Origin: Xestospongia bergquistia
Lineage: Eukaryota; Porifera; Demospongiae; Haplosclerida; Petrosiidae
Direction of reading: 5' to 3'
DNA: 64,000 bases
Assembly (NCBI GenBank): GCA_963965975.1
Contig: OZ014416.1
Coordinates: 1,178,001 to 1,242,000 of the forward strand
The notes under the pieces are model-generated. The model was not told where the DNA came from and ran no database searches. It saw nothing but the letters and a program-made list of their open reading frames with translations. A program made the translations under genes and the position numbers. Positions 3,102 to 61,759 of the stretch are shown here, piece after piece. Each line of letters begins with the position of its first letter. Position 1 is the first letter of the stretch.

Positions 3102-3439
3102 TTTGGTGGCTACCAGTGCCGTGTTTGCCAAAAAGTATAAGGTTTTCCATCATTTTCACAAATGTAGCACAATTTGAAACAAAATACCAGCTTTTCTATC
3201 TTACATTTTGAATTGCAGTCATAAGTATTATTTCTTCATCACAATATGTATGAATGTTTTTTTATGAGCTGGTTGAGCATGGAAGCTCACTACCTTACAA
3301 CATATTGCACCTTTTTCTATATTGCCTATTGAATTAAGCAACCAATAAATAAAAACACTTTCTAAAAATGAAGTAAATGTAGGTAATATCAATTACATAC
3401 AAAGAATGTAAACAAGAGAGTAGGAATGACAATTGCATC

Positions 3440-3780: not shown

Positions 3781-3832
3781 AAACGTTTGTCATTTTAACC
3801 TATGTCTTTGTTACCATAGTTTCATCAATACA

Positions 3833-4113: not shown

Positions 4114-4204
4114 CATATTTGTGAAGCTAGCTATCAGGCACACAATAGCAGTGTCTATGTAGGGATGACCTGGATTATCCATTGAAATATATTGTCATGA
4201 TCAG

Positions 4205-4391
4205 AAAACACAGAGTGTCTCACCCAAAACACATCAGAATATCTCAATACTTGTCAGTCTTCCTTCCTAAGACAATATCCATGTTATGACTGGTTTATAA
4301 GCTAAAGCAATGTTTGGCTATATCAACCAGTCAGTTTTTACAGTGTAAATATATTGGACTCTTTTGAACTATCCATGTTGAATATTGTTAT
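4205..4391. repeat. Direct repeat, right copy
   Basis: Nearly identical to 1-186, about 4.2 kb away in the same orientation. Probably part of the tandem unit that carries the vWA genes. Confidence 0.85.
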
Positions 4392-7887: not shown

Positions 7888-8082
7888 GCTTAAAAGCTTG
7901 TAAGTTGTAGATTTATTAATAATTGCATGCAGTCCTCTTTTATAGACTTGTCTAATTCTAAAATTGAACAGTAGTGTGTTCAAAATTTTGACACACACTT
8001 TAAATTTTGTTTGTTATGGAAGAAACCTTTCACTGACTTTATATTCCTACCAACTCCAAATATTAATAAATATGCATTTACT

Positions 8083-8518
8083 TATGGGGTGCTGTTTGTG
8101 TCAAAATTGGAAAATTTTCATGATATAATAAAAAGTCATTATTTATTAAAATATACGGAAGCCTCAGGCGGACATTCCAATTTCAATATAATGGGGTTAT
8201 ACAGAGTTTTAATGTCTGTCCTCGACTTCCCTAAATAATAGACCTACAATATACAACCAAAGTCAAGGACCCAACCTAACTGGAAACATCTCGCTGACGC
8301 TTGATTCTAAGAGACGGCTCATGGTACTCGCGCTCCACATTTTATTAAGTAACAATAAAAAGTAAATCATAACATGTTAAATGTACCATTGAATGTATTT
8401 AATTTTGACACAAACGGTGCTCCATAAATAAGAAGTAAATCGACAATAATTTGATAACTAATGACTTATTTATTATATCATGATAATTTTTCAATTTTGA
8501 CACAAACAGCGCCCCATA
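8083..8518. mobile_element. Nested MITE with TATGGGG/CCCCATA ends
   Basis: Ends are inverted: TATGGGGTGCTGTTTGTGTC at the left and, reverse-complemented, TATGGGGCGCTGTTTGTGTC at the right, each continuing with AAAATTG. Inside, 8345-8426 matches the right half of the MITE at 48002-48163 (shared AAAAAGTAAATCATAACATG and the AAACGGTGC end). The block is therefore two related elements nested or fused. No open frame of its own. Confidence 0.7.
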
Positions 8519-10687: not shown

Positions 10688-10867
10688 CCAAATGTTTATA
10701 TTGATGGTTGACTTTATAATGAAAGCAAAAGTATTGTTTTGTTTGTTTGCATTCATAAAAGTAAACAAGTCATATATGACTACTCACATGTGACTTGTTT
10801 ACTTGTTCTATAAATGCAAAGAAACAAAACAATACTTTTGTTTTCGACAATCAATATAAGCATCTGG
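10688..10867. mobile_element. 180-base fold-back element
   Basis: The two halves are imperfect reverse complements over most of their length. The ends are CCAAATGTTTATATTGAT and, on the other strand, CCAGATGCTTATATTGAT. The inner arms share AAAAGTATTGTTTTGTTT and GTAAACAAGTCA. It has no coding capacity and is likely a MITE. It lies between vWA copies 2 and 3. Confidence 0.8.
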
Positions 10868-11172
10868 CATTTTGCAGTATATAATTGTAAAATAAGAAAC
10901 AGTCACTTTGTTGTTGTACATTTTCATTTATTGAATAAGTTTCTCTATACTAGATAACACATGTACACAATATTAAAAGTGAAATTTGCACAAAATGTAT
11001 ACAAACAACAAATATGTATTCCGCAGATACTTTGCAAAATATATAATTAAAATAACAGTTATGGATACAATGCATTTACTAATTGTCACTATAGCTACAT
11101 TATTGTAAAAACTAATCAAGCACACAACCTGTATTGTTAACATGTTATTGTAAAAGGGAAGCACTTCTGTCT

Positions 11173-13055
11173 TCATTGTAACGTAGCAAAGAGCACAACC
11201 ACCAGGACCAATAATGGTATGTAAGCCGTTTTCACTCCTAATGCTGTAAATATAGGGCAAATAAATGCTATATTTGATGATTAATGTACTAGTATATTAA
11301 CATGTATTAAGTTTCATACATGCATTAATGCTTTACCGCCACTTGTTGTATCTCCATATGTTGTATTGAGTAGGAATGTGTTGTTAGCTTGTAAACCCAC
11401 AAATGATAGATAAACACTAGCTGTTGTATTTGATGATGACCCAGTAGATGACTGATGTAATGCAGGACTTACAAAGTAATCTATACCAGTAGTGCCATCA
11501 CTTTGGGCTGAGAAATCTGATGTTAAAGAAGTGGGGTTTCTAACTGAAAATGATCCTTGCATTTTTAGTTGTCCAGATATAATATTAACTTTTACTGTAA
11601 ATCCTTCAGAGGGGAAAGCATATTGCAATAAACGGGACTCATTCTGACCAAGACTTGCTTTAATACTATCATTTATAGAAGTAATGGCTGGAGCTATTTG
11701 AGATAAAGTAGAGTATTCTGATTAGAACTTTTAATGTAATATGCTTACTTGTACAAGCTGATGTTTGTAGTGGAAGCAGTTTGGCATCAAATTGACTTAG
11801 AGAGAAGTCTGAAATAACAAAGACATTGTTAGAACTAGAAGCTATAGTATTCAGTTCATTGATGTTAACACCACTTCCAATACCAAATGAGTAGACTACT
11901 ATACCAGTATCATGAACAGCCTGTGCAGCTTGAGCAGTTAAACTTTGTGAATTGGAGTAACCATCAGTAAAAACTATAGCTACTCGAGGGACTCCTTGAC
12001 TTGTACGAGCATTATTAAAGGCAGTATCTAGAAGGTTTAAAGCTAAATGTGTAGCTGTTCCTCCACCAGTATAATAAATATTAGTAATAGAAGTGTTTAG
12101 CTGTCCAGCATTGTTAATTGAACCAAGTGGAATTACAATAAAAGCTGAACTTGAAAATCTTATAACTCCAACACGTGTTTTGTTAGCCCCAATTTCAAAG
12201 TTAGAAATGATAGTTTTAACAAAATTCTTCATTGTTACAAAGTTGGAACTACCAACACTTCCAGAAGCATCCAACACAAAGATAATATCAAGACCAGATT
12301 TGCAACCTATATATAATACATAGAATATTGTAAAAATTAACAGTTGTACTGTGCATACATGCTAACCTCCAAGAAGCTCTTTCAGAGTTTGAAGGAGTTG
12401 ACGTGTAACAAGTTGTTCAGTACTTGATATCCAACTATCCACAGAAGATAAGAAGCTATTGGCTACTTGTGTGGTACATGTAATTGCTGTGTCAAGAATC
12501 TAGCACATATTTATTTGATCAATAAGAGAATTGACAAAATTATTGTTTTCAAACCTGTTGAATTGCTTGCTTATTCCAAAAATCATTCCTGGAAAAAACT
12601 TCATAGGCAAGGCAATTCAAATTAGTAACACTCAAAAGAATGTCAGTACAGAATCCACTGGTATTATAACAGGATGAATGATTATTGAAAGCTTGTGTCT
12701 GTAATTGACTGCATGTTCCAATTGAACTGTAGACATTACTATTCAGGATGGCCCTCATTAGACAAATGTAGGTATTATTGACCCAAGTTTTACCCTACAT
12801 ATGAAATTAATCAACATATTCTAAAAGAACATGAATTTAACTTACAGCAGATGAAAAACAGGTTCGCTTATTTGTGAATTGACGACAGTATCTGTCACCA
12901 TAAGCCCTAGGATATCCATTAGTACCACATTGAAATTTTCTCTCTACACACTGAGTGTAGAAGTCACAGTTACCAGCATTAGCTAGAGCTGTACAGTCCT
13001 GAGCTTTGACAGTAACTGCCAAGTAGAACACCACTGCAAACAGGAGTAATTTCAT
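11173..13055 (-). CDS. Secreted Cys-rich/vWA surface protein, copy 3
   Basis: Six exons join in frame: 12846-13055, 12555-12794, 12367-12499, 11749-12306, 11337-11717 and 11173-11243. The predicted protein is about 530 residues. Order: signal peptide (MKLLLFAVVFYLAVTVKA), Cys-rich module of about 130 residues, a 44-residue linker exon (LQTLKELLGG), vWA domain with DASGS, a Thr-containing loop (GGGTATHL) and FTDG, a beta-sandwich with several N-glycosylation sequons, and a hydrophobic end (YIPLLVLVVVLFATLQ). Unlike copies 1 and 2 it has no furin-like site and no mucin-like tail. It is probably displayed on the cell surface through a GPI anchor or held by its C-terminal helix. The Cys pattern recalls stanniocalcin-like proteins, but I am not sure of that. 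Confidence 0.85.
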
Positions 13056-13639
13056 GTTGAAGTACAATATTGTTTGTTAGTTGCATGAACTTTTATATAA
13101 GAAGAAATTATACAGGAAGTAAATCTATACCAAATAACTCTATAATTTGTTTAGATACTAATTATAAACAATTTGTCATCATGGTTTATTAATCTTCATA
13201 GCTCCTATTTTTTGAAGCAAGTTTTGACTTTCCTATTACGCCATCTTTTGTACATCTTTCATTGTTTTAAAGTTTTGAAAAAGAGGTTAAACACTTTTTA
13301 TATTAACTACAATATAACTCATTGAAGAACTAATATAAATATATTGCATAAATATGTTTGAAAAGTCCTGTGTATTTAAATTATATGACAGTTGACAATT
13401 TGACAGATTAATTAGCAGTACTGCATAGAGTCGTGTTTTCTTTAGCCACATCATGGAAGAGTGATTTTACTTTAAAATTTCACTAATATTTAATTTTTCA
13501 TTCCATTCATTTTTACTGGGACAAGCTATATGGAAGTAAAAAACAGGTCTGAATGATTACCTGTAACTAACAATAAATGACAAATACAGTGCTAGCTACC
13601 AAATTGTTAATAGATCACATAAATCATACATTCAATTAT

Positions 13640-14760
13640 CAGAATTACGTTCACTAGTTGTATCTCTTAAATGTTGTGTGCTCAGAGAGAATGTGTTGTT
13701 AATCAGAAAGCCCCCAATGGATAGGAAAGGATTATTTAATAGTGAATCAGCTTGCAAACCAATTAGGCTATGACTGATGATGTAACTCAGGACTGATAAT
13801 GTAAATAGTGTTATTTTGGACATACAAATCAGCTATTACTGTTAATGAATTAGAGTGTTTCTTACTGAAATGATCCATAGATTAACAATTGTCCAGATAT
13901 GATATTTATTTTTATTGTGAGAACTTATTAGGAAGGTATATTGTAGCAGGCAAAACTCATATATACCAAGACTTGTCTGTATACTAACATTGCTAGACAT
14001 AATAGCTGCATGGAGCTGTTTGAAACTATGTAATAATAATAGATGCTTGCAGTTAAAGATGGAGTATAGGATTGACCACCAACTCAAGGCACTCCTTGAC
14101 TTGTATGAGCATTATTAAAGGCAGTTTCTAAAGACTTAAAGTGAAATGTGTAGTTGATGACTATGATAAGGAATATTGGTATTGGAAGTATTAACCTATG
14201 TAACATTGGCAATTGAACCAAATGGAACCACAATAGAAGCAAAGTGTCAAAATCATATAGCTCCAACATGTGCAAAATGTGCTTTGTTACCTCCAATTTC
14301 AAAGTTGGTAATGGCATTTTTTACAAAGTTCTCAAACCTTTGAAGTTTGTGCTACCAAGACTTTTAGAAGCTTCCAACACAAACACAATATCAAGACCAC
14401 ATCTACAACATATATGCACAGTGCGTGTCAAAATTTGAGAACAAATACATTGATTTCCTTTGTAAAAACCTCAGCATCTTTAAAAGTACATATATACTGT
14501 AATACAGCCAGATGTTAGAATTCACAAGAATATATAGAAGAACATAAGGAAATGGTAATTGATGATTACATTTCTATACTCATAAGCTTTGTATAAGCAT
14601 CCAAATTCATGTCAAATATAATTTTTGCTGTTGATGGTGTTACAGAATTGTTGTCACACTGATTGCAAGAGAATACAGCAAGAAAGTGTCCATTAGTACT
14701 ACATCTAAATCATGTCTCTATAGAACTGAATTGTTGCATGCAACTTCAAGTACCATATGC
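13640..14760 (-). pseudogene. vWA gene, copy 4 (heavily decayed)
   Basis: Scattered minus-strand matches keep the exon order of the family. About 13640-13990 resembles exon 5. About 14084-14410 resembles the vWA exon; its 5' end still encodes a readable LEASN in place of LDASG, and a fragment of the GANKTRV region survives. About 14640-14760 resembles exon 1. Frameshifts, internal deletions and stops break every exon, and exons 2 and 3 are gone. No function is expected. Confidence 0.75.
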
Positions 14761-14984
14761 GCATATGCTACTTGAAGTGGTATTGAAAGCATTTCCTGCT
14801 GTAACCATTTACTGAGGTTAGAGGCTATGTAGTTACAATTTACATTGTAGCACAGCTCACTGACCAATTTCATACAAGAAGTTTAGTAGTACAATGTAAC
14901 AAACACAATGTGTTCATTAAAGGAATTATTGAAATAGAAGGTGTGGTTTAATTATTGCTAATTGTTCAAAGATAAGGTGTAACT

Positions 14985-15285
14985 GTAACCTACTGTAACT
15001 CACTGTAACCTATTACAATCCATTCTAACCCATTGTAACCTACTATAACACATTATAACCTACTGTAACACATAACCTACTGTAACCACTGTAACCTACT
15101 ATAATTTATTGTAACCCACTGTAACCTACTTTAACCCAATGCGATATGTTGTAAACCACAACCTACCATAACATACTATAACCCTCTGTAACCCATTGTA
15201 ACCTGCTGTAACCTACTGTAACTCATTATAACCTGCTGTAACTTACCATAACCAACTGTAACCCACTGTACCCTACTGTATCATT
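14985..15285. repeat. Degenerate CTGTAACCTA tandem repeat
   Basis: About 300 bases of imperfect head-to-tail units built on TGTAACCTAC/CACTGTAACC, with variable unit length (8-19 bases). It lies just upstream of the decayed vWA copy 4 and downstream of copy 5. No coding frame of note. Confidence 0.8.
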
Positions 15286-15777
15286 GGACACCAATGAGTT
15301 TGCCATGAGTTTTGACAACAATTACCAAATAAATTATCAATACAAATGTACATAAGTAACTATGTTATTGCTCATATATCAACACACAGAGTGCAGCTAG
15401 TATATAAAGTAGTTCTGGAAACATATATAGACAACTTAACAAACAGTTAATGTACATACAAGTTGTTATAATAAAAAAGTAAGCACTATTAAACAAGTTC
15501 TATGCTAATAAATTTATGCTAAACACAATCATTGTGGTGTGTACTTGTAAAATGACAAGTGATCAATTTGTTGTTATACAGTTTCATTTATTAACAAGTT
15601 ATACCAGATAACTCATGTACACAATATCAAAAGTGAAGTTTGCAAAATATATAAAAAAAACAGTTGTGGATACAATGCATTTACTAATTGTCACTATAGC
15701 TACATTACTATAAAAACTAATCAAGCACACAACTTGTATTGTTAACAAGTTATTGTAAAAGGGAAGCACTTCTGTCT

Positions 15778-17653
15778 TCATTGTAGCACAGCAAAGAGCA
15801 TAGCCACCAGGACCAATAATGGTATGTAGGCTGTTTTCATTCCTAATGCTGTAAATATAGGACAAATAAATGCTATATTTGAACATTAATGTACTAGTAT
15901 ATTAACATGTATTAAGTTTCATACATGCATTATGCTTTACCGCCACTTGTATCTCCATATGTTGTATTGAGTATGAATGTATTGTTAGCTTGTAAACCCA
16001 CAAATGATAGATAGACACTAGCTGTTGTATTTGATGATGACCCAGTAGATGATTGACGTAATGCAGGACTTACAAAGTAATTTATACCAGTGGCATTATC
16101 TCTTTGGATTGAGAAATCAGATGTTAAAGAAGTGGGGTTTCTAACTGAAAATGATCCTTGCATTTTTAGTTCTCCAGATATGATATTAACTTTTACTGTA
16201 AATCCTTCAGAGGGGAAAGCATATTGCAACAAACGGGACTCATTCTGACCAAGACTTGCTTTAATACCATCATTTATAGAAGTAATGGCTGGAGCTATTT
16301 GAGATAAAGTAGAGTATTCTGATTATAACTTTTAATGTAATATGCTTACTTGTACAAGCTGATGTTTGTAGTGGAAGCAGTTTGGCAGCAAATTGAGTAG
16401 GAGAAAAGTTTGAGATAACAAAAACATTGTTAGAACTAGAAGCTATAGTATTCAGTTCAGTTTTGTCAATACCAATTCCAATACCAAATGAATAGACTAC
16501 TATGCCAGCTGCATGAACTAACTGTGCAGCTCGAGTAGTTGAACTTCGTGAATTAGATTGACCATCAGTAAAAACTATAGCTACTCGAGGGACTCCTTGA
16601 CTTGAACGAGCATTACTGAATGCTGTATGTAGAAGATTTAAAGCTAAATGTGTAGCTGTTCCTCCACTAGTATAAACAATATTAGTAATAGAAGAACGAA
16701 GCTGTCCAGCATTGTTAATTGAACCAAGTGCAATTACAATAGAAGCTGAACTTGAAAACCTTATAACTCCAACACGTGTTTTGTTAGCCCCAATTTCAAA
16801 GTTAGAAATGATAGTTTTAACAAAATTCTTCATTGTTACAAAGTTGGAACTACCAATACTTCCAGAAGCATCCAACACAAAGATAATATCAAGACCAGAT
16901 TTGCAACCTATATATAGTGCATATAATATTGTAAAATTTAACAGTTGTACTGTGCATACATGCTAACCTCCAAGAAGCTCTTTCAGAGTTTGAAGGAGTT
17001 GGCGTGTAACAAGTTGTTCAGCATTTGATATCCAATTATCCACAGAAGATAAGAAACTATTGGCTACTTGTTTGGTACATGTAATTGCTGTGTCAAGAAT
17101 CTAGCACATATTTGATCAATAATAGAATTGACAAAATTATTGTTTTCAAACCTGTTGAATTGCTTGCTTATTCCAAAAATCATTGCTGGAAAAAACTTCA
17201 TAGGCAAGGCAATTCAAATTAGTAACACTCAAAAGAATGTCAGTACAGAATCTATTGCTATTATAACAGGATGAATGATTATTGAAAGCTTGTGTCTGTA
17301 ATTGACTGCATGTTCCAGTTGAGCAGTAGACATTACTGTACAGGATGGCCCTCATTAGACAAATGTAGGTATTATTAGCCCAAGTTTTACCCTGTATATG
17401 AAATTAATAAACCTATACTAAAAGAACAATGAATATAACTTACTCCAAATGTAAAACAGGTTCGCTTATTTGTGAATTGACGACAGTATCTGTCACCATA
17501 AGCACTAGGATATCCATTAGTACCACATTGAAATTTTGTCTCTACACACTGAGTGTAGAAGTCACAGTTACCAGCATTAGCTAGAGCTGTACAGTCCTGA
17601 GCTTTGACAGTAACTGCCAAGTAGAATACCACTGCAAACAGGAGTAATTTCAT
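15778..17653 (-). CDS. Secreted Cys-rich/vWA surface protein, copy 5
   Basis: Structure and length match copy 3. The ATG at 17653 starts the same signal peptide; the Cys-rich exons lie at about 17447-17653 and 17156-17395. The linker exon follows, then the vWA exon at about 16363-16920 (DASGS, FTDGQSN). The beta-sandwich exon is at about 15943-16331 and the hydrophobic tail exon ends at 15778. The exon 4/5 junction is in frame as in copy 3. Differences from copy 3 cluster in loops, for example the vWA segment after the MIDAS Thr and the region YSFGIGIG. Exon 1 ends with a changed residue pair (FG instead of SA). Spacing of about 4.6 kb between stop codons of copies 3 and 5 fits unequal crossing-over. 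Confidence 0.85.
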
Positions 17654-17759
17654 GTTGAAATACAATGTTCTTTGTCAGTTGCGTCCACTTTTATAGGAAA
17701 TAAACAATATAATTAATTGATATAATTATTTTATAATAAACAATTACAGTCATATTGCA

Positions 17760-25691: not shown

Positions 25692-25881
25692 TAATTTTTT
25701 CAGTATTACGACCACGCCTCCCTCTGTGCGTATAATTAGCGCATTTATACACGTGGGACTGCCTTTTCTCTGAACTATTTAAAATTTGCTTTCAATTTTG
25801 AATCTAGGTCTGTCCTGTGAACATCAGTAATTCACTCACTGGAATTATTTCGAAGCCAGATCTCTGAGAAGTGTCATAATT
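25692..25881. promoter_or_regulatory. Bidirectional promoter, SNX25-like/DDX19
   Basis: Only 190 bases separate the divergent start codons. The part from 25719 onward is also present before DDX19 copy 2 (31281-31449), so copy 2 kept its own promoter side while the SNX gene was not duplicated. Confidence 0.6.
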
Positions 25882-27969
25882 ATGGCTGATATTGTTGACT
25901 GGGCCAGTGCTGTGGATGAACAAGAGAAGCAACAAGATGCAGTCACAACTGGTGTAGCTAGTATGAAGGTTTCTGAAGGTGTTGGTCCTCCTGGATCAGC
26001 AGATGAACCTGGTGATGTAGAAACTAGTAAAGCTGAAGCGTCACTGTTGACAAAAATATTAAGAACAAAGTTAGTGGACAACACTAATGATGTTCACGTA
26101 CAACAGAATGATCCAACTTCTCCTTTATATTCTGCTAAGTCCTTTGAAGAGTTAAGATTGTGAGTTAAAGTAAATAATTGTTGAGGTATTGTGTTGTCAC
26201 TTACCCTTCCAGAAAACCCAATCTCCTCAAAGGTGTCTACGGAATGAAGTTTAATAAGCCGTCTAAGATTCAAGAAAAGGCCCTCCCTCTACTCCTTGCT
26301 GATCCGTTAGTAATGCTATGATGGATGAATAGATTGGTAGATGGATGGATGAATAAACAGAGCATTTATCAATATTGGTATTTCAGTCCTCAGAATTTGA
26401 TTGCACAAAGTCAAAGTGGTACTGGAAAAACAGGAGCTTTTGTCCTAGCAATGTTGAGTCGCGTAGATCCCACAAAAGATCATCCTCAAGTACAATATTT
26501 TTTAAACTATCTTGTCATTATATCTTGTTTTCTTCTAGGTAATATGTCTTTCTCCAACATTTGATTTAGCTCAACAAACTGGCAATGTACTCATGCAAAT
26601 GAGCAAATATTGTCCAGAAATCAAGATGACTTATGCTGTCAGAGGAGCTCGAAGTTAGTCCAACTTTTTATTGTTCCTTCTTCACTACACCACTTAACAT
26701 TCTCAAAAGATGATTAGTATTACATGAGTAGCTGCTTATTTGTTGTTTGTATTATTCAGCTTTAAGTCGTGGTGATAAAATTACTGAACACATCTTGATT
26801 GGAACTGCTGGGACTGTTCTTGACTGGGCTATGAAAATGAAAGTATTTGATCCTCGACTAGTTAATATGTTTGTGCTTGATGAAGCTGATGTAATGATTG
26901 ATACTCAAGGACAACAAGATCAAACTATTAGGATCCACAAGTAGGCACAGAGAAAGAGGGGGGAGGGAGGGAGAGAGAGAGAGAGAGAGAGAGACTTGTG
27001 TTTATTTTTTTTCTTTTTTGAAGACTTTTAAGAAAAGAATGCCAGCATGTGTTGTTCAGTGCTACCTACAGTGATGCAGTTATGGACTTTGCAAGAAAAA
27101 GTACATTAATGTATATTACCTAGTTACAATACTTTATATCTCTTTAGTTATCAGTAACCCCAACATTTTACAACTCAAACGTTCTGAAGAAAGTTTAGAT
27201 AATATTAAACAATTCTTTGTATGGTGCACAGGAGAAGATGGTAAATTTGTTGCTCTCTCCAATTTATATGGAGTATTAACTATTGGTCAATGTATTGTCT
27301 TCTGTCATGTAAGTCGTCAACCCACATCTCCAGTACTTCTCCAATGTTTTTGTTATCTCTAAACAAACTTGCATGATATCTTATGACCTCTTCTATTGAA
27401 TTAATGTTTTTTTGTTATTTTTATTTATTTCCATTATTTTAGACACGCAAATCTGCTGGTTGGTTAGCTGGGAAAATGCATAAAGAAGGACATGCTGTAG
27501 CGTTGATTACTGGAGAGTCAACTATTGAGCAAAGAATTGCTGTTTTGAACAGGTATGATTATCATTGTTGTTTTCTTCATATAGTTTGTTATTCTATCTG
27601 TTTAGATTTCGTGAAGGAAAGGAGAAACTTTTAATTACTACAAACCTTTGTGCAAGAGGAATAGATGTTGAACAGGTACATTATAAAGCATGTTTAGATA
27701 ATATTGTATCTCTCTCTCTCTCTCTCCCCTAGGTTACACTGGTAGTCAATTATGATATACCACTTGATACCAATCGCAGACCTGACTGTGAGACATACCT
27801 ACATAGAATTGGTCGCACTGGGAGATTTGGTAAATCAGGTCTTGCTATCAACTTTGTTGACGGACGAAAGTCTTTCGACAATCTCATGTTTATACAATCA
27901 CATTTTGGGCGTAAAATTGACAAATTAGATACAGATGATCCTGATGCGATAGAGAAGCTTCAAAGCTAA
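25882..27969 (+). CDS. DDX19: DEAD-box RNA helicase DDX19, copy 1
   Basis: Ten exons can be joined in frame from the ATG at 25882 to TAA at 27969. Motifs run in family order: the Q-motif region (FEELRLKP ... [12 protein letters not shown]), motif I ([11 protein letters not shown]), Ia ([10 protein letters not shown]), the GTAGTVLDW region, motif II (LDEADVM), III (FSAT), IV (FCHTRKSA), V (ARGIDVEQ) and VI (HRIGRTGR). DDX19/Dbp5 acts at the cytoplasmic face of the nuclear pore, where with GLE1 and IP6 it removes export factors from mRNA. Length (about 470 residues) and the N-terminal leader fit. It shares a short promoter with the SNX25-like gene. DR1 exon 1 follows 140 bases downstream. All catalytic motifs are intact. 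Confidence 0.94.
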
Positions 27970-28109
27970 CACTATAAATATATAATTGATTGAATTTGAG
28001 TACATTAGATGTCCCATTTTATGTATTTATCTTTGTAATTACGAAGTACTATTTTCTTAATAGAATCATTTTAACCACACCCACTAATTATTTACATGTG
28101 GTAGTGATT

Positions 28110-28158
28110 ATGGCAGACAGTCTTTTATCTCAAGATGAAGAACTGTATCTTCCACGAA
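28110..28158 (+). pseudogene. Orphan copy of DR1 exon 1
   Basis: The start codon, 16 codons (MADSLLSQDEELYLPR) and the GTGAGT donor are identical in pattern to the working DR1 exon at 33735-33783. The following DR1 exons are absent here because piggyBac-like sequence begins at 28503. It could be transcribed but cannot make DR1. Confidence 0.85.
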
Positions 28159-28502
28159 GTGAGTTGTAATGAAATAACGAGTACCTGTGATCCTAGAACT
28201 ATGTCTGTAAGGTTCGCAAAATATCTAATTCTCTATAACAATATTAACTTTAATATTAAAAAGACTGAACTTAAGGACACACTCTGTATTCAGATTACTT
28301 GCTCTAGAGCCACTAATAATAGTATTATGACAGGTTTATATACTGAGGGGATTTTCCACTATGTCTTATTATCACTGTCCAATGCCCACCATTTATTAAT
28401 GGTAGAATATCTATGGACTATGATTTAACGGAAATCAATAATTATTATAGGGTTCATGTTTTAAGACTTAGGATCTAGGATTTGTGAATTGTTTCCCATT
28501 AA

Positions 28503-31280
28503 CCCTTTACCAACCATTTGCCCATGCACATTATATGCTCTTGACCATAAGATTTTAGTTGAAAAACGCATTGTTTGTGTGTGCTTTTTTCTCTGTTTTT
28601 TTTAGCAAGAGAACATGATTATAAGCTCACCTGAAGTACTCCAGTGGAAAGGTAAGTGATTTTTTGTCTGTGTTATTGCTAGTTTTGTATAATCTGTTTG
28701 TTTTACGATGTTTCACAAGTCAGTCTCCCCACTGAGGAGATTGATTTGTCATTTTTTTATTTGTACTACTCTAAGTGAGTCATTATGATTTATTTAGGTT
28801 TATGAAAGGTGTTTATATCAAAAGTGATATAATATCCTGTGTCGGTAAGTAAGCTATTTTATTATTATTTTTATTGTTTTATTATTACACAGTTTTAGGT
28901 ATAGAAATATGAGTGATAAAATGAATACACATTACATGAGTGATAACATAAAGATAGTAAGTGAAATGATAATGATAGTAAGTACTGTCTAATGCAGCTG
29001 TGGATTTATATGATACTTTTCAAAGCAGCAATCATCTTCATCGTGAGTATAAACGCAAAGAGGAACATCACATGCTTTACATTTTAGTCTGGTTTCACGT
29101 CTCACTTTATTAACGTTCCAGCAGTACCAACATCTAGCTTTGTTACATTTTGTAGGGTAATGGCCATTTCCCTTGTCTATGTTGTCTGATCTTCTTTTTG
29201 TGGGAGTAGTAGACTTTGCTTTGGCTAAGTCATATGTAGGTCTGGGCATACCATATCGTTGACAACTGTTATAGTCTCCAATCAATTCAATCGCTAAGTT
29301 TAATCGGAATTGCTTATAACTGTACCTTGCTTGTGCAGTAGCTGGTATATAGTTCTTGAAAAGAATATACAAGTTGGTGATGATTACATCCAGTAGGAAC
29401 TTGAATATATACCTAAATAAATAATGTGTGATAATGGTATTTTAATCTTTTCTTACATGTAGAATTTCCGTGATTTCATATGCAGTTGGTAATACGAACG
29501 TAATTGATCCGCCTTGTCTACACCTCCTATGTACTTATTATATGAGGTAATATTAAGTGGTTGTTTTATGATTGTATTTGGTTTCCTTTTTACATTGACA
29601 GTGCTGGTGGGATTACAATTCGTGGACATAACATAGACAAGTCTTTTGTCTTTCCATGCTGTGACAACTACATTTCCGGCTTGTCTAAACATAAACTCTC
29701 CTTGATTGAGATCACCTAAATAAAGTATGTACAAAGTATAACTTATCATTGCTTACCTTCTCTTAGTTGTTTGATAACATATGGTATTCCAGCACGATTT
29801 ACACAAAATGTTCCACAGGAATAAAGGTCACGATCAAGTAAATGTTGGAGTAAAGGTAGTGAAGTAAAGTAGTTGTCAAAGTACACATGATGACCACTAG
29901 GTAGTTTTGAAGTGAGTTCTGATACAACCTTCATGCCTAGATTTTTTTCAACTGTATCATCTTCCTTGCCAATGTAAACTTTAAAGTCTATGATATAACC
30001 ATTGACTGAGTCAGCTAAAATCCACACCTTTATTTCCCGTTTTATAGGTTTCAATGGAATGTACTGTGTTATTTTTGACTTTCCTTTAAATTTGATCATT
30101 GCTTCATCTACTGAAACATCTCTGTGCGGACAATACAAAGAATCAAACTTTAGGAGGTCAAGAATAGGTTGAACTCGTGCCAGCCTGTTGAACCCAGGTT
30201 GTCCATGTGGTATAATGGTATCCTTGTCTACAAAATGCAAAAATGATTTGATTTCCATAAACCTTTTACGTGATATTCTTGATGCTATTGGAGCATAGTG
30301 AAGACATGGATCTGTCGACCAGTAATCATATATATATGGAAACTTGTTGATCCCCATTAGTATACAAAAACCAAAGTAAGCGACTCTGTACAGGTTTTCC
30401 AGCTGTCGTTTCCTAAACACTGAGCAGCATATCTGTTGGTTTCTACTACAATTAGGTCGATAATTGCCCTGGTAAAAAACAGTAGGAAAATCTGTAATGG
30501 ACTATGAGAAAGAGTTACTGTTGGTCCTGGTACACTAGCAAATGGTTGAATGGTGACATCTGAAGCTTGGTCACTCCATTGTAAATCAACATCATTGTTG
30601 CTATTATCCGGTTTGCCCTGCCCTCTACAACGAGCTCTATGACATCCTCTACCTCGGCCTCTACCACGACCTCTACCACCTCGACTACTTCTATGACCAC
30701 CACAACCTCTACCACGAGAACGTCCTTTCCCACGACTACCACTTGATTGAAGGTTCATATCACTACTAGTATTGTTTTCTCTATTCACTATCATTTCCAC
30801 CTATTTTACTTGCATAATCACCAACATAACTATCGTCATCATTATCACTACTATAATCAGTATCATTTCCAAGTATAACATTTGCACCAACTAACGTATC
30901 TTCCATTTCTCTAGCATCCAGTTCTTCCAACACTTCAGCATCCAATTCATCATCACTTCCAGAAAAAATATAACTCTTCCATCTCATGATCACTGTCTTC
31001 CATTACTAATTCACATACTTCATCTGTAGTATACTTTCTAGACATTGTTTACTATCAAAATTTTCTACTGCAGCAGCTGGTTACTACATTCCCTAATACC
31101 ATAGATAGTATAGTACGTAACTCCCGTTTTTTGACTCCACCCATAAACATTAGCTTTTATTTTTCATTATTACGATTTTATTTGTTATAAATACAAAATA
31201 CTAAAGAAAAGTAGCAAGAAGGAGCTAATATTATAAAGGTAAACTTTGTTAAAGTTGAAAACGCCATATGGTGTCATTGG
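28503..31280 (-). mobile_element. piggyBac-family transposon
   Basis: The left boundary is TTAA followed by CCCTTTACC, the form expected of piggyBac, which targets TTAA and has ends starting with CCC. The transposase runs toward this end. A matching GGTAAAGGG end was not found at the right. The sequence up to 31280 has TTAAAGT near 31250 and AAAGGTAAACTTTG just before it, which could be a weak or decayed end. The right boundary is therefore approximate. Confidence 0.75.
28989..31045 (-). CDS. piggyBac-type transposase, probably interrupted
   Basis: Order on the minus strand: an acidic N-terminus (from the ATG at 31045, SDDELDAEVLEELDARE), an RG-rich stretch (GRGRGRGRG), then the DDE domain with SVDEAMIKFKGK, VYFDNYFTS and GGVDKADQ, which carry the three expected catalytic Asp. 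A C-terminal Cys-rich zinc-binding tail (CWYCWN, CKACDVPLC) follows. Two gaps are well explained by short introns of about 40-46 bases, near 29708-29750 and 29414-29453. Three frame changes, near 30970, 30790 and 30420, look like indels, although splicing cannot be fully excluded. The enzyme would cut and paste DNA at TTAA. It lies between the two DDX19 units. Confidence 0.8.
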
Positions 31281-32535
31281 TCCCTCTGTGCGTATAATTA
31301 GCGCATTTATGCATGTGAGACTGCCTTTTCTCTGAACTATTTAAAATTTACTTTCAATAAGAATTTTGAATCTAGGTCTGTCCTGTGAACATCAGTAATT
31401 CACTCACTGGAATTATTTCGAAGCCAGATCTCTGAGAAGTGTCATAATTATGGCTGATATTGTTGACTGGGTCAGTGCTGTGGATGAACAAGAGAAGCAA
31501 CAAGATGCAGTCACAACTGGTGTAGCTAGTATGAAGGTTTCTGAAGGTGCTGGTCCTTCTGGATCAGCAGATGAACCTGGTTATGTAGAAACTAGTAAAG
31601 CTGAAGCGTCACTGTTGACAAAAATATTAAGAACAAAGTTAGTGGAAAACACTAATGATGTTCACGTACAACAGAATGATCCAACTTCTCCTTTATATTC
31701 CGCTAAGTCCTTTGAAGAGTTAAGATTGTGAGTTAAAGTAAACAATTGTTGAAGTATTGTGTTGTCACTTACCCTTCCAGAAAACCCAATCTCCTCAAAG
31801 GTGTCTATGGAATGAAGTTTAATAAACCGTCTAAGATTCAAGAAAAGGCCCTCCCTCTACTCCTTGCTGACCCGTTAGTAATGCTATGATGGATGAATAG
31901 ATTGGTAGATGGATGGATGAATAAACAGAGCATTTATCAATATTGGTATTTCAGTCCTCAGAATCTCATTGCACAAAGTCAAAGTGGTACTGGAAAAACA
32001 GGAGCTTTTGTCCTAGCAATGTTGAGTCGTGTAGATCCCACAAAAGATCATCCTCAAGTACAGTATTTTTTTTAACTATCTTGTCATTATATCTTGTTTT
32101 CTTCTAGGTAATATGTCTTTCTCCAACATTTGATTTAGCTCAACAAACTGGCAATGTACTCATGCAAATGAGCAAATATTGTCCAGAAATCAAGATGACT
32201 TATGCTGTCAGAGGAGCTCGAAGTTAGTCCAACTTTTTATTGTTCCTTCTTCACTACATCACTTATCATTCTCAAAAGATGATTAGTATTACATGAGCAG
32301 CTGCTTATTTGTTGTTTGTATTATTCAGCTTTAAGTCGTGGTGATAAAATTACTGAACACATCTTGATTGGAACTGCTGGGACTGTTCTTGACTGGGCTA
32401 TGAAAATGAAAGTATTTGATCCTCGACTAGTTAATATGTTTGTGCTTGATGAAGCTGATGTAATGGTTGGTACTCAAGGACAACAAGATCAAACTACTAG
32501 AATCCACAAGTAGGCACAGAGAGAGAGGGGGGAGG

Positions 32536-32590
<55 letters not shown>

Positions 32591-33319
32591 GTGTTTATCT
32601 TTTTTTCTTTTTTGAAGACTTTTAAGAAAAGAATGTCAGCATGTGTTGTTCAGTGCTACCTACAGTGATGCAGTTATGGACTTTGCAAGAAAAAGTACAT
32701 TAATGTATATTACCTAGTTACAATACTTTATATCTCTTTAGTTATCAGTAACCCCAACATTTTACAACTCAAACATTCTGAAGAAAGTTTAGATAATATT
32801 AAACAATTCTTTGTATGGTGCACAGGAGAAGATGGTAAATTTGTTGCTCTCTCCAATTTATATGACGTATTAACTATTGGTCAATGTATTGTCTTCTGTC
32901 ATGTAAGTTGTCAATCCACATCACTACTCTCTAGCATCTTCTCTAATGTTTTCAACCAAGTTTGTTATCTCTGAACAAACTTGCATGATCTCTTATGACC
33001 TCTTCTTTAAATTAATGTTTTTTTGTCATTTTTATTTATTTCCATTATTTTAGACAAGCAAATCTGCTGGTTGGTTAGCAGGAAAAATGCATAAAAAAGG
33101 GCATGCTGTAGCGTTGATCACTGGAGAGTCAACTATTGAGCAAAGAATTGCTGTTTTGAACAGGTATGATTATCATTGTTGTTTTCTTCATATAGTTTGT
33201 TATTCTATCTGTTTAGATTTCGTGAAGGAAAGGAGAAACTTCTAATTACTACAAACCTTTGTGCAAGAGGAATAGATGTTGAACAGGTACATTATAAAGC
33301 ATGTTTAGATAATATTGTA

Positions 33320-33351
<32 letters not shown>

Positions 33352-34138
33352 CCCTAGGTTACACTGGTAGTCAATTATGATATACCACTTGATACCAATC
33401 GCAGACCTGACTGTGAAACATACCTACATAGAATTGGTCACACTGGGAGATTTGGTAAATCAGGTCTTGCTATCAACTTTGTTGACGGACGAAAGTCTTT
33501 CGACAATCTCATGTTTATACAATCACATTTTGGGCGTAAAATTGACAAATTAGATACAGATGATCCTGACGCGATAGAGAAGCTTCAAAGCTAACACTAT
33601 AAATATATAATTGATTGAATTTGAGTACATTAGATGTCCCATTTTATGTATTTATCTTTGTAATTACAAAGTACTATTTTCTTAATAGAATCATTTTAAC
33701 CACACCCACTAATTATTTGCATGTGGTAGTAATTATGGCAGACAGTCTTTTATCTCAAGATGAAGAACTGTATCTTCCACGAAGTGAGTTGTAATGAAAT
33801 AACGAGTACCTGTGATCCTAGAACTATGTCTGTAAGGTTCGCAAAATATCTAATTCTCTACTAACAATATTAACTTTAATATTAAAAAGACTGAACTTAA
33901 GGACACACTCTGTATTCAGATTACTTGGTCTAGAGCCACTAATAATAGTATTATGACAGGTTTATATACTAAGGGGATTTTCCACTATGTCTTATTATCA
34001 CTGTCCAATGCCCACCATTTATTAATGGTAGAATATCTATGGACTATGATTTAATGGAAATCAATAATTATTATAGGGTTCATGTTTTAAGACTTAGGAT
34101 CTAGGATTTGTGAATTGTTTCCCATTAAAGTAAATCAT
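31281..34138. repeat. Duplicated unit 2: DDX19 plus DR1 exon 1
   Basis: Counterpart of 25719-28502. The final CCCATTAA continues without insertion into the DR1 first intron, so this is the empty form of the TTAA site. Confidence 0.95.
31450..33594 (+). CDS. DEAD-box RNA helicase DDX19, copy 2 (altered motifs)
   Basis: Same ten-exon structure as copy 1, all splice sites kept, no stop codon. Motifs I, Ia, II, III and V are unchanged. Motif VI reads HRIGHTGR, with Arg to His at 33439-33441, and motif IV reads FCHTSKSA, with Arg to Ser at 33057-33059. Other changes are LKRSEES to LKHSEES and HKEGH to HKKGH. In DEAD-box proteins the changed motif VI Arg contacts the ATP phosphates, so ATP hydrolysis may be poor. 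DR1 follows directly on the same strand. It could be a decaying duplicate, a regulatory paralogue, or another allele joined by assembly. Confidence 0.88.
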
Positions 34139-46181: not shown

Positions 46182-47294
46182 GGTTTCTAATTGTTTTATT
46201 TTATTGTAGCCCTGTACTGATGTGTATTGGTTTCCACTCTTTTCACCTTCTTATGCTAAGGAGATGATTGAGGTGAGATGTTTGTGATTATTATGAAATG
46301 ACTTCTCTCTCCCTAGGAGTTGGAGAACTATGGTAAGTGGAGTTCTGGGAATCACGAAGATGAAAGATTGGACGGTGGTTATGAGAACGTACCAACCAGA
46401 GACATACATATGAACCAGGTAATATAATAGTAATGATTGTAGATAGTATTATGCCAGTAGATCATAACAGGAAAAAATATTTTATTTATCCTCTTGTTTT
46501 TAGATTGGTTTTGAGAAACAATGGTTGAATATTTTAGCAAAATATGTTGTACCTATGCAAATAAAAGTGTTTCCTGGTTACTATTCTAAAGTAAGTTGTT
46601 GTACTATCTCTTCTCTTCCATTTTCTAACAATATCTTTTTTTTAGGGAAATGGAGCTTTAAATTTTGTCGTAAAATATCATCCAGAAGGCCAACCTGATC
46701 TTCGACCTCATCATGACTCATCCACATTTACAATTAATGTTGCACTAACAACACCAGGAATTGACCACGAGGTATTCTAATAACAAAATGATATTAGTAG
46801 TATACAAAAAGATCATGTATACACTGAGACATTGAAACCTATCATTAGTGTAGAGGTGACCTCATACAGTGATTGAAATAAATGAAGGACTAGATCAAAA
46901 TATCCCAAATATAGATTATATAGTTCATTGTACATGTATCTATCTTTACATGTATTTCCTTTTTACAGGGAGGAGGTTGTAAATTTATCCGACAAAATTG
47001 TAGTGTTGTCGATACCAAACTGGGCTGGGCTTTAATGCATCCTGGACGCCTTACTCACTATCATGAAGGATTACCAACAACTAAAGGTGATAACCACCAT
47101 CATGAGAAAGAGAGAGAGAGAGAATGAGAGAACCAAACAGACAAACAGAGAGGCAGAGATAGAGACAGAGACAACCAGATAGAGATAGAAGTGCACACAT
47201 AGAAATACCTGTGAACAAGTTAAAATTAATTCTTTTCTTTTTCTTTTGTCATGTAGGCACTCGTTATATTATGGTCTCCTTCATAGATCCTTAG
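43091..47294 (+). CDS. PLOD: Procollagen-lysine 2-oxoglutarate 5-dioxygenase
   Basis: A multi-exon gene from the ATG at 43091 (signal peptide [20 protein letters not shown]) to TAG at 47294, about 700 residues. The N-terminal glycosyltransferase-like domain has VVMFVDSYDVIF and DDDQLYYT, the Asp groups that hold Mn and UDP-sugar in LH3. A second such domain follows. The C-terminal dioxygenase has the Fe ligands in RPHHDSSTF and [11 protein letters not shown], and the 2-oxoglutarate Arg in [12 protein letters not shown]. It hydroxylates collagen Lys in the ER and may add sugars. The last exon (47257-47294, 38 bases), which holds that Arg, is repeated twice downstream. Several introns have CT-rich acceptors. 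It is head-to-head with the caspase gene. Confidence 0.95.
44955..45050 (+). repeat. (CT)n tract at a PLOD 3' splice site
   Basis: About 90 bases of CT repeat, with a few CTAT units, end at CATAG just before the exon that starts at 45056. Confidence 0.9.
46106..46181. repeat. (ATT)n microsatellite in a PLOD intron
   Basis: About 25 uninterrupted ATT units. Confidence 0.95.
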
Positions 47295-48001
47295 GAAATC
47301 ATTTTTTTCATTGCATTAACAACAAACGAAATGAATTTTTCTTTTATTAATTGAATGTATTGTTTTGAACTATTCTTTTGGTGTTTTTCACCATTCACTA
47401 TCTCTGATTCAAATTATATAATCAAAGATTTTGAATTACGAAACAATTTGCTGGAAAAATCTCCATTCCATCCTATATTTATTAATATTCACGACACGTT
47501 AATCATATTTAATGAGTTCACGAATCATTAATACGTATTACTAATCTTATTCCACAAGCGCTTTGCAAAAATTGTGTAGTAAATATAGAAAGTATATAAT
47601 GATCAGTTATAATGTAGTTATTATATTGTATCTAGTTCCTGAACTATAAAGTGTTATATTAACTAATGTTATTGATAATCTCACTGCAGTACAGTGGACA
47701 TTAATCTATATATTTTAGTGGCTCATGACTCCTCCAGTTTATGGGACAATAAAATGAAGATTGTATTGGTGTATGATAATACTAGTAAATATTACATTCA
47801 GCTGCACCTCTATTGTTCATAGTTCATCGTGTTTTTCATACTTATAGTTTTGTTAGCAGTACCTACAACATCAAGTCAAACTGAACTAATACTAATCATC
47901 TCTATAGTTACTTCATTTTTAGAGATGTTTATAGTTACTTGTATATAGTTATAATAAGTGAACATGTAATTGATTTTCACACTTATGCTATATGAATAGT
48001 A

Positions 48002-48163
48002 TAATAATGTAGGGCACCGTTTGTGTCAAAACTGGAAAATTATCATTCATTATTTAGTAAACCATGCATTATATAATAAATAACAAGCATTAAAAAGTAA
48101 ATCATAACATGTTAATTAACTATACCATTGAATTCATTCGACTTTGACATAAACGGTGCCCTA
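48002..48163. mobile_element. MITE in unit A, absent from unit B
   Basis: The inverted ends are AGGGCACCGTTTGTGTCAAA and its near reverse complement. It is flanked by TA on both sides (48000-48001 and 48164-48165). Unit B has the empty form GAATAGTACAATAAGAG at about 51112, so the element length (162 bases) and the TA target site are read directly. It belongs to the same family as the block at 8083-8518. Confidence 0.88.
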
Positions 48164-48418
48164 TACAATAAGAGCTGTCTATACATTATGGTTTATCATC
48201 ATTATTGTCACTAGTGGGAAATGACATTTGTTTTCTTTATTATACAAAATGTCAACATTTAATATCATATAAACAACTAGTTGACAGGAAAAATGAAACA
48301 TAATTGAATGGGACTGTATGAAAATATGTTATTAATTATTTATTTTTAATGACAGACTAAAATATTATAGATTATAATACAATCTACAATGTTTTATATG
48401 ATATTATATTATTATAGT

Positions 48419-49060
48419 TTATTCTACTGTGGCTGAAGTAATCGAATTATTAACAATAGAGGATGATGATATCTTGAAGTTGATATAAGCTGCATTTACT
48501 TTAACCTCTATATTAGCATCTGTTGGTATATTAGCATCTGTTGGTATAGTAACACTATTAACAGCTATATAATGGAATGACAATAGACAACATACAGCTG
48601 TTTACTTTGAGATTTCAGTAAAAATGATTTTCACTTTACATTTTCATACATATATGTGTGTGTTTCTCAGTTAATAAATTTTATGATCACTTTAGCAGAA
48701 TTGTATGCATGTCAACAATACAAAGGGCAAAATCCTCAGTAATAAGTATCATGCAAAGGACTAGTTGTTGATAGAGAATTGATAACATACTTAAATGTAA
48801 AATTAATACTATATCCTACTTTGGAGTGTAACTATTTGAAATATGTCATTCCACTATTGACTTTCTGTATTTACTTTATCCCATATATACATGGATAATT
48901 ATAAATGTATAGTTACTTACTTACCTAGTGCAGTGTTATGAATACTTTGTACTTTCTTCTTGCAGTAGATGAAAATACCAACAGTCAACACCAGTAATAT
49001 CAGAAGCAATAAATCTATTGCACCAATAATGATACCTCCAACAGTAACATTAATAGCCAT
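48419..49060 (-). CDS. Small single-pass membrane protein, copy A (novel)
   Basis: Two exons, 48925-49060 and 48419-48564, with a CTAG/GTAAG donor and a TATATAG acceptor, give 93 residues. The N-terminus is short with a sequon (MAINVTVGG). A membrane segment of about 25 residues (IIIGAIDLLLLILLVLTVG) follows, then the basic stop-transfer YCKKK. A polar cytoplasmic tail carries TIPTDANIPTDANIE and AAYINFKI, ending TSATVE. An Nout-Cin orientation is predicted. I recognise no family. The tail Tyr (YINF) resembles an SH2-type docking site, but that is only a guess. A second copy 3 kb away differs by in-frame indels only, which argues that it is a real gene. It lies antisense, downstream of PLOD. 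Confidence 0.72.
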
Positions 49061-50360
49061 CATCCAATGGAGAGACAAGTTTTAAGTGACAATATTCAGT
49101 GATGCTTTCAAATTTCCTTTTAGAGCAGAGGAGATATTAATTATGATGTTGATGAGGCCAAAATTGCTTATATTGATACATAAACTGATAGAGCAATTAA
49201 CAGAACATTCCTCTCTGACTGGGACCAGTCAGATGATTACCTGATTGTATAGGCTCCCCCTTGAAAGAGTTTTGTCGAGTTCGAACGGTTTCGTCTACGG
49301 ATACCGTAATTCTAATTAAACAAACATTGCGGATTTACAAATTACAAGACAAGGAACTGACAATCTAAGTAATGACAATGATGATGAAGGAGTTTAAGGT
49401 ATTTGATGATTAAAATAGTGTACTATTTAATGTTAAGGAAAATAAAGATTAAAGAGTTCATAAGTTAATGTGTTGAGACATGGCTGCTACATAGTCTGAT
49501 AAAGAAATTACATTACTTCTAAATCTACCTTGAAATGTATATTGTATTTATATATACATTTGCTTAACTCATTAATTTGTTTTAATTGATCTAAGAAGTC
49601 AATAGATCTTATGAAATTTAGGTAGGTCTTGCAACCTCTTTGTGTATTTTACAATGAGATTTATTCAATTTTTTGGAATAATAATTACAATAAAAAATTC
49701 AAGAATTTCTATTAATTACAATTACAGTATCTGTGGGCAAAAATGTACTATTGTATTAAAATTTGAGTAGACAAACCCGGAGTAGGCGAACCTGGACGAT
49801 ACCCTTTGAAACAACATGTGGTTTCAATCGTTATATAAATACTTCATTCGTTCTGAGTTCATAGATTATAATTATAACTTACACATACATATAATTGAAA
49901 CAACATGTGGTTTCAATTGTTATATAAATACTTTATCCATTCTGAGTTCATAGATTATATAACATACACACATATACAACTACTCCATAAATATATATAC
50001 TTGAGAATGGGACTCAAATAATTATTTATAAGAAATAATATTACATTACATGTTCAGAAACTCATGCATGCATGTGTACAGGGCAGTATATCCAATTTTT
50101 CCATAGTGTGGCACATATCAATTAGTTTTCCTATGATAGTGCAAAACTTCATTGACTATAACAACCATTACTTGATACTGTGTGCACTGCAAGTTTCAGT
50201 TCCCAAAATAATTATTGGGACAAACCATTGTAAAGATAACAAGTTTAAATATCATCATTTTACAGTACATTGGAATTATAGCAATGCAAGTCCATAATGC
50301 ATAAATAGAAATACTTGTGAGCAAGTTAATATTATTTGTTTTCTTTTTTTTGTCATGTAG
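49061..50360. other. Spacer and probable promoter of small gene A
   Basis: No gene seen. A 70-base segment starting AAACAACATGTGGTTTCAAT is repeated in tandem at about 49812 and 49899, and once in unit B at about 52167. Confidence 0.55.
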
Positions 50361-50398
50361 GCACTCGTTATATTATGGTCTCCTTCATAGATCCTTAG
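50361..50398 (+). pseudogene. Extra copy of PLOD last exon (unit B)
   Basis: Acceptor (TGTCATGTAG) and all 38 coding bases ([11 protein letters not shown], stop) are kept. It could be an alternative last exon of PLOD or a dead duplicate. Confidence 0.85.
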
Positions 50399-51372
50399 GA
50401 AATCATTTTTTTCATTGGATTAACAACTAACAAAATGAAATTTTCTTTTATTAATTAAGTTAATTAATTAATTTAATTAAATGTATTGTTTTGGACTATT
50501 GTTTTGGTGTATTTCAACATTCACTATCTCTGATTCAAATTAAAGATTTTGAATTGCGAAACAATTTGCTGGAAAAATCTCCATTCCATACTGTAATTCA
50601 ATATTTTAATAATATTCACGACACGTTAATCATATTTAATAAGTTCACAACTCGTATTACTAATCTTGTTCCACAAGCACTTTGCAAAATTGTATAGTAA
50701 ATATAGAAGGTATATAATGATCAGTTATAATGTAGTTATTATATTGTATCTAGTTCCTGAACTATAAAGTGTTATATTAACTAATGTTATTGATAATCTC
50801 ACTGCAGTACAGTGGACATTAATCTATATATTTTAGTGGCTCATGACTCCTCCAGTTTATGGGACAATAAAATGAAGATTGTATTGGTGTATGATAATAC
50901 TAGTAAATATTACATTCAGCTGCACCTCTATTGTTCATAGTTCATCGTGTTTTTCATACTTATAGTTTTGTTAGCAGTATCTACAACATCAAGTCAAACT
51001 GAACTAATACTAATCATCTCTACAGTTACTTGATTTTAGAGATGTTTATAGTTACTTGTATATAGTTATAATAAGTGAACATGTAATTGATTTTCACACT
51101 TATGCTATATGAATAGTACAATAAGAGCCGTCTTTACATTATGATTCATCATCATTATTGTCACTAGTGGGAAATGACATTTGTTTTCTTTATTATACAA
51201 AATGTCAACATTTAATATCATATAAACAACTAGTTGACAGGAAAAAATGAAACATAATTGAATGGGACTGTATGAAAATATGTTATTAATTATTTATTTT
51301 TAATGACAGACTAAAATATTATAGATTATAATACAAGCTACAATGTTTTATATTATATTATATTATTATAGT

Positions 51373-51974
51373 TCATTCTACTGTGGCTGAAGTAATTGAA
51401 TTATTAACAATAGAGGATGATGGGTCAGTTAATATCTTGAATTTGATATAAGCTTCATTTACTTTAAGTTCTATATTAGCATCTGTTGGTATAGTAGCAC
51501 TATTAACAGCTATATAATGGAATGACAATAGACAATATACAGCTGTTTACTTTGAGATTTCAGTAAAAATGATTTTCACTTTTAAATGAGTCAGTGTGTT
51601 TCTCAGTTAATAAATTTTATGATCACTTTAGCAGAATAGTATGCATGGCAACAAATACAAAGGGCAAAATCCTCAGTAATAAGTATCATGCTAAGTTGTT
51701 GATAGAGAATTGATAGCATACTTAAATGTAAAATTAATACTATACCCTACTTTGGAGTGTAACTATTTGAAATATATCATTTCACTATTGACTTTCTGTA
51801 TTTACTTTATCCTATACATGGATAATTATAAATGTATAGTTACTTACCTAGTGCAGTGTTATGAGCTTTCTTCCTGCAGTAGATGAAAATACCAACAGCC
51901 AACACCAGTAATATCATCAGACATAAATCTATTACACCAATAATGATACCTCCAACAGTAATATTAATAGCCAT
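51373..51974 (-). CDS. Small single-pass membrane protein, copy B (novel)
   Basis: Exons 51848-51974 and 51373-51509 give 87 residues with the same plan as copy A: MAINITVGG, a membrane segment (VIDLCLMILLVLAVG), YCRKK, and a tail with TIPTDANIE, EAYIKFKI and TSATVE. Relative to copy A each exon is 9 bases shorter overall, always in multiples of three. The stop has changed from TAA to TGA. Many differences are synonymous (for example TCG/TCA and GAG/GAA). Reading frame, splice sites and membrane topology are thus kept, although the surrounding DNA has more indels. Function unknown. Confidence 0.72.
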
Positions 51975-52624
51975 CATCCAATGGAGAGACAAGTTTTAAG
52001 TGACAAAAACTTAATATTCAGTAATGCCTTCAAATTTCCTTGTAGAGGAGATATTAATTATGTTGATGAGACCAAAGTTGATACATAAGCTGATAGAGCA
52101 ATTAACAGAACATTTCTCTCTGAATTGGGACCAGTCAGGTGATGACCTGATTGTATAGGCACCACCTCTGAAACAACATGTGGTTTCAATTGTTATATAA
52201 GTACTTCATTCGTTCTGAGTTCATAGATTATACAACATACACACATATACAACTACTCCATAAATATATATACTTGAGAATGGGACTCAAATAATTATTT
52301 ATAAGAAATCACATTACATTACATGTTCAGAAACTCATGCATGCATGTGTACAGGGCAGTATATCCAATTTTTCCATAGTGTGGCACATATCAATTAGTT
52401 TTCCTATGATAGTGCAAAACGTCATTGACTATAACAACCATTACTTGATACTGTGTGCACTGCAAGTTTCAGTTCCCAAAATAATTATTGGGACAAACCA
52501 TTGTAAAGATAACAAGTTTAAATATCATCATTTTACAGTACATTGGAATTATAACAATGCAAGTGCATAATGCATAAATAGAAATACTTGTGATCAAGTT
52601 AAAATTATTTTTTTTGTCATGTAG

Positions 52625-52740
52625 GCACTCGTTATATTATGGTCTCCTTCATAGATCCTTAGGAAATCATTTTTTTCATTGGATTAACAACTAACAAAAT
52701 GAATTTTTCTTTTATTAATTAAGTTAATTAATAGCAATGC
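52625..52740 (+). pseudogene. Third PLOD last-exon copy with truncated flank
   Basis: The exon at 52625-52662 is again complete with an acceptor. Homology to units A and B stops near 52735, so this is the broken end of the array. Confidence 0.8.

Positions 52741-53180: not shown

Positions 53181-61759
<8,579 letters not shown>

Follow-up and report, generated by a model that had tools for sequence, protein, structure and literature searches.

Two related two-exon open reading frames (ORFs) of 94 aa (copy A) and 88 aa (copy B) lie on the minus strand of the window, the whole 64,000-nucleotide stretch analyzed here (C6:1178001-1242000), within a recent tandem duplication of about 2-3 kb that also takes in the final exon of a PLOD-like gene. 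Our preferred, tentative reading is that they are copies of a small, taxon-restricted gene encoding a single-pass membrane protein of type III, which was duplicated, has kept its frames open, and has since changed at a near-neutral rate.

In copy A, ORF and splice-signal reading places exon 1 at 48925..49063 (minus strand, as are all parts of both copies); it begins with MMAIN, runs through the helix, and ends at a phase-1 donor. A 360-base intron, GTAAG...TATATAG, follows at 48565..48924 (splice signals and unit alignment), and exon 2 at 48419..48564 (ORF reading and codon alignment) encodes a tail with NAAYINF and stops at TAA. The corresponding parts of copy B, read in the same ways with codon alignment also used for exon 1, are exon 1 at 51848..51977, a 338-base intron at 51510..51847, and exon 2 at 51373..51509, whose tail contains NEAYIKF and ends at TGA. 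Exon lengths are 139 and 146 bases in A versus 130 and 137 in B. The initial annotation had described a pair of two-exon copies with the same splice signals, and this description holds: both copies have a phase-1 GT-AG intron with the donor AG/GTAAG and the acceptor TATATAG/ (slashes mark exon-intron boundaries). Two adjacent ATGs open the frame, the first of which gives MMAIN and a protein one residue longer than that of the earlier annotation. AATAAA/ATTAAA signals, of a kind common in AT-rich DNA, are found 68-74 bases past both stops.

Each copy encodes one hydrophobic helix, with a 19-residue Kyte-Doolittle maximum of 2.87 in A and 2.95 in B. Because the N terminus is uncharged (net zero over the first 10 residues) and residues 35-49 carry a charge of +3 in both copies, an N-outside, C-inside orientation is expected, in agreement with the single-pass plan predicted earlier. 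Asp17 lies inside the hydrophobic stretch of A and B, and the single conserved tail tyrosine that had been pointed out is present as YINF in A and YIKF in B. The encoded protein would have its N terminus outside the cell, almost no ectodomain, and one helix with an Asp toward its outer end; the helix would be followed by basic stop-transfer residues and a 54-60-residue tail that carries a single tyrosine motif, N-x-A-Y.

The 5' end of the gene is closed. In both copies, an in-frame TAA begins 21 bases 5' of the ATG with no AG in between, and an upstream exon cannot be joined in frame there because no acceptor intervenes. Exon 1 is thus ruled out as an internal exon of a receptor, and no Ig/FN3 ectodomain is joined upstream of the helix.

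An ORF arising by chance within noncoding DNA would be in keeping with the AT-rich setting (28% G+C in the region) and with the lack of a further homologue among the matches in the genome. We nevertheless consider this origin unlikely. A search for one-intron ORFs that reach 88 aa, have a GTRAG donor, and encode a helix in their first exon found none in 400 dinucleotide shuffles, made from unit A alone, and none in 277 randomly placed, overlapping segments elsewhere in the window; one shuffle in 400 did contain some ORF of this general kind. The control is only indicative because the ORF criteria were set after the ORF had been seen, and the tail motif and the Asp were likewise picked after the fact. 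Since the search script takes the longest of several joinings, its own best ORFs (105 aa in A and 99 aa in B) exceed those described.

The similarity of A and B is explained by the recency of the tandem duplication. Repeat and alignment analysis delimits unit 1 at 47192..50297, with the end of the PLOD-like gene, a receptor-gene relic, a MITE-like insert, copy A, a dispersed-repeat insert, and an upstream region; unit 2, which holds copy B, at 50298..52570; and a third-repeat stub, with part of the PLOD last exon only, at 52571-52732. Each unit opens with sequence from the PLOD-like gene, namely the 3' part of its last intron followed by its last exon (47257..47296, plus strand, in unit 1; identified by translation and as repeat family D6, which recurs where units 2 and 3 begin). 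The 3' end of this gene faces the 3' end of the small gene, and its five joined exon pieces match Pfam 2OG-FeII_Oxy (E 1.2e-11); PLOD is the name that we assume for it. The small gene was copied along with this last exon by a duplication of about 2-3 kb. Within the 146.46 Mb (21 contigs) of genome searched, the DNA of the small-gene region gave four matches, at just two sites apart from two matches of 33 and 36 bases.

Two inserts are confined to unit 1. The first, a MITE-like element at 48012..48161 with the inverted ends GGGCACCGTTT/AAACGGTGCCC, was recognized by unit comparison and by its dispersed genome matches, and the MITE-like element is also found at 8338-8433. The second, upstream of copy A at 49285..49792, is a dispersed repeat revealed by unit comparison and genome search. 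Elsewhere in the window, a transposase frame at 29746-30501 (DDE_Tnp_1_7, E 8e-44), presumably of the PiggyBac type, is flanked by two 2.8-kb direct repeats that are 96% alike (25719-28502 and 31281-34128), and a tandem array with a 36-base unit at 55327-56245 can be read on the minus strand as an open frame for a repeat protein.

The initial annotation had seen protein-level constraint in the likeness of the two copies and had stated that the flanking DNA varies more freely; neither statement is borne out. Substitutions separate the copies at 16/258 exon positions (6.2%; 18/258 by codon alignment including the stop, with different gap placement), compared with 14/337 in the intron (4.2%; P 0.26 for exons versus intron) and 6/255 in the 3' flank (2.4%). 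In the other aligned parts, they number 6/435 in the stretch beyond the 3' flank (1.4%), 13/182 immediately upstream (7.1%), 10/402 farther upstream (2.5%), and 25/357 in the PLOD end (7.0%); the comparison excludes 48004-48163 and 49263-49895, where the two units cannot be aligned. Nor do exons have fewer indels for their length (3 per 258 aligned bases versus 18 per 1968 elsewhere). Between A and B, dN is 0.070 and dS is 0.069; the resulting dN/dS of 1.02 (95% interval, 0.31-4.3) is near 1, the value named at the outset as evidence against constraint, and exons are no more conserved than flanks. By this estimate, protein change after the duplication has been close to neutral.

Divergence is uneven along the units. 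The 3' flank and the next 435 bases (12/690) are more alike than the exons, intron, near upstream region, and PLOD end (68/1134; P 9e-6, with the 10/402 farther upstream left out), perhaps through gene conversion. The segments at 47568-48003 and 50686-51120, which carry the receptor-gene relic, are 1.4% apart between units versus 6% in the adjoining exons, possibly for the same reason.

Thirteen of the 17 coding changes alter the protein (13 nonsynonymous and 4 synonymous over 85 aligned sense codons), and exon divergence is nominally higher than that of all remaining aligned parts taken together (16/258 versus 74/1968, P 0.065), as might be expected of a fast-evolving pair under diversifying selection, e.g., in immune or self recognition. 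We regard such selection as quite improbable: the neutral expectation for the nonsynonymous share is already 71-75%, the dN/dS interval takes in 1, and there is hardly any ectodomain, on which such selection usually acts.

The frames stay open in A and B despite 16-18 substitutions and 3 indels. The coding indels, of 9, 9, and 18 bases, are all multiples of three, and since 5/18 indels outside the exons are, 3/3 has a P of about 0.02-0.04. The in-frame difference of 9 bases net per exon noted earlier is therefore upheld with a refinement, exon 2 having two indels (18 and 9) instead of one. In neutral simulations with 16 substitutions and 3 indels, the exact frame survived in 4% of runs, and 90% or more of the ORF in 7-9%. 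Between-copy evidence for constraint is weak and limited to the frame-preserving indels (P about 0.02-0.09) and to the stop codon, which differs between the copies, TAA in A and TGA in B, and is still a stop in both. Of the earlier claim of a real small gene, what stands is a gene that is real or recently real, as argued by its absence from shuffles, its closed 5' end, and the three in-frame indels; the argument from constraint falls.

A drifting remnant is nearly as likely as a working gene. The pair may well derive from the decaying or functionless helix-plus-tail end of an old receptor gene, which was cut from its ectodomain, duplicated by chance, and left to neutral drift, its frames still open because little time has elapsed. 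Such a history agrees with the dN/dS of 1.02 and with an exon divergence like that of the intron, and the neutral chance of frame survival, 4-9%, is not negligible; it is harder to reconcile with 3/3 coding indels in frame and with a frame that has its own start and no upstream acceptor.

The remnant reading also draws on Ig/FN3 receptor relics in the same units, on the other strand. In unit 1, a degraded receptor gene was identified from genome matches and locus reading at 47597..47880 (plus strand); it comprises a piece of an FN3 exon and the final portion of a tail exon, with a further segment on the right-hand side. A second copy is present in unit 2, and each relic is downstream of the small gene. 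Relatives of the relic form tandem arrays on C2 and C10. The large Ig/FN3 receptor arrays, at C2:278-384 kb, C2:5.93-6.22 Mb, and C10:4.91-4.94 Mb (L024-L026), often have tails with two Tyr motifs. When three receptor domains were submitted to Pfam, one FN3 and one Ig passed the cut-offs and the second Ig failed. Receptor tails gave 97 genome matches at E up to 10, with pieces of one exon counted apart and some containing internal stops. From 20 places among these matches, besides L024-L026, we built 25 rows of helix plus tail, setting aside the tails that lacked a paired helix match (L050, L056, L059, L061, and one of four in L026); removal of one identical row gave 24.

The small gene and the receptors share an N-x-A-Y tail motif, present in both small tails and in 21/24 receptor rows; the motif, chosen post hoc, appears in 88 and 59 out of 5000 shuffled small tails. 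Motifs of the N-x-x-Y type are known for the docking of phosphotyrosine-binding domains. The order of helix exon, phase-1 intron, and tail exon is common to the small gene and one receptor locus read by eye, L016, a point in favor of the remnant, but the small-gene intron is some 8-11 residues farther from the helix than in L016, a point against it. Evidence from scores is similarly divided. Against a small database built from fetched loci, copy B hits receptor tails at E 0.006-0.1 (11/28 residues in one ungapped stretch), and the whole proteins score 13.2 bits (B, E 5e-6) and 10.5 bits (A, E 3e-5) on the receptor helix-plus-tail profile, values that hold for a one-sequence search, come partly from the helix, and have no shuffle control; both results would fit a remnant. 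Against it, the small tails alone score 4.6 and 3.1 bits on this profile, which 76 and 140 of 2000 shuffles equal, and their scores on a receptor tail profile are reached by 87 and 156 of 2000; furthermore, the A and B tails align in different registers. Because shuffles reach the tail scores, the registers differ, and the E of 0.006 comes from a small database, we consider a kinship with the Ig/FN3 receptors to be suggested and go no further.

Apart from its intron position and nonsignificant tail homology, the small protein differs from these receptors in having no ectodomain and an Asp inside the helix. Residues 6-30 contain no Asp or Glu in any of the 24 receptor rows, four flagged rows of which have K or R at or past the helix end. 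In many rows, an Asp directly precedes the helix (LSDVV, LSDGV), so an Asp at the outer helix edge is not unusual in itself.

Searches of the own genome with whole protein B and the tail of A returned nothing beyond A and B at E <0.03. Matches at E 0.036 and 0.061, to helix-and-tail frames near a Calx-beta frame and a DSL frame, respectively, were taken as composition matches. The frame near the DSL domain (L008, C8), which matches copy B at E 0.061 only, resembles the small protein in its helix and in a tail with N-N-V-A-Y but differs in that the DSL frame lies on the same strand some 1.1 kb upstream, probably within a single gene. Pfam gave nothing above the cut-off for A and B, and PDB gave nothing below E 1 for copy B; matches at Pfam E 0.03-0.9 and PDB E 1.4 and 1.9, some of them to viral proteins, were dismissed as helix composition. 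There were no Rfam matches at gathering scores in the entire window. Among prokaryote genomes and viral contigs, sets that are free of animals, none of 145 and 49 pattern matches, respectively, was confirmed, and no title naming this gene was found among the titles and abstract openings covered by the literature search.

Repeated vWA-domain genes occupy positions 300-17700 of the window in minus-strand orientation (the one tested matches Pfam VWA at E 5e-40) and have hydrophobic ends, which we take to resemble a GPI signal. A kinship of their tails (about 0.3-17.7 kb) to the small tails, prompted by the weak match TALGVKTAYIP, was rejected, as those genes end in a hydrophobic stretch and a stop.

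The ITAM adaptors FcR gamma, CD3 zeta, and DAP12 have an Asp-bearing helix, a Tyr tail, and, in some but not all members, a very short ectodomain; in vertebrates, ITAM adaptors pair with a receptor through the acidic helix residue and a basic residue in the partner helix. The small protein likewise has hardly any ectodomain, an acidic residue in its helix (Asp17), and a Tyr tail. Unlike these adaptors, in which two Y-x-x-L/I motifs 6-8 residues apart are expected, it has a single tail Tyr, and no similarity to a known ITAM adaptor was found in Pfam (A and B) or PDB (B). It is not filed as a member of this class because an ITAM is absent.

If our preferred reading of a duplicated small gene is correct, and if the protein is expressed and oriented as predicted, its putative docking tail would bring a Tyr motif to the membrane without an ectodomain. 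An adaptor-like role, as the initial annotation had proposed along with a receptor-like one, may be inferred by analogy only; the proposal gains mild support from the Asp in the helix and from the N-x-A-Y motif common to receptor tails. By the same analogy, we would guess that the protein partners with a receptor in the membrane through the Asp and that its Tyr motif is phosphorylated or bound. A bolder scenario, in which an early-branching animal evolved, independently of vertebrates, a tiny acidic-helix adaptor that lends its Tyr motif to clustered Ig/FN3 receptors, the pair being newly duplicated and diverging, we hold to be very doubtful.

At present, the value of these observations is mainly a caution: when tandem copies are a few per cent apart, their likeness is no evidence of constraint. 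If the gene is real, it would encode a small orphan membrane protein whose tail motif is of the receptor type, and gene finders easily miss genes of this sort. If the protein is an adaptor, split receptor-adaptor signaling through a charged helix would seem to have arisen outside vertebrates.
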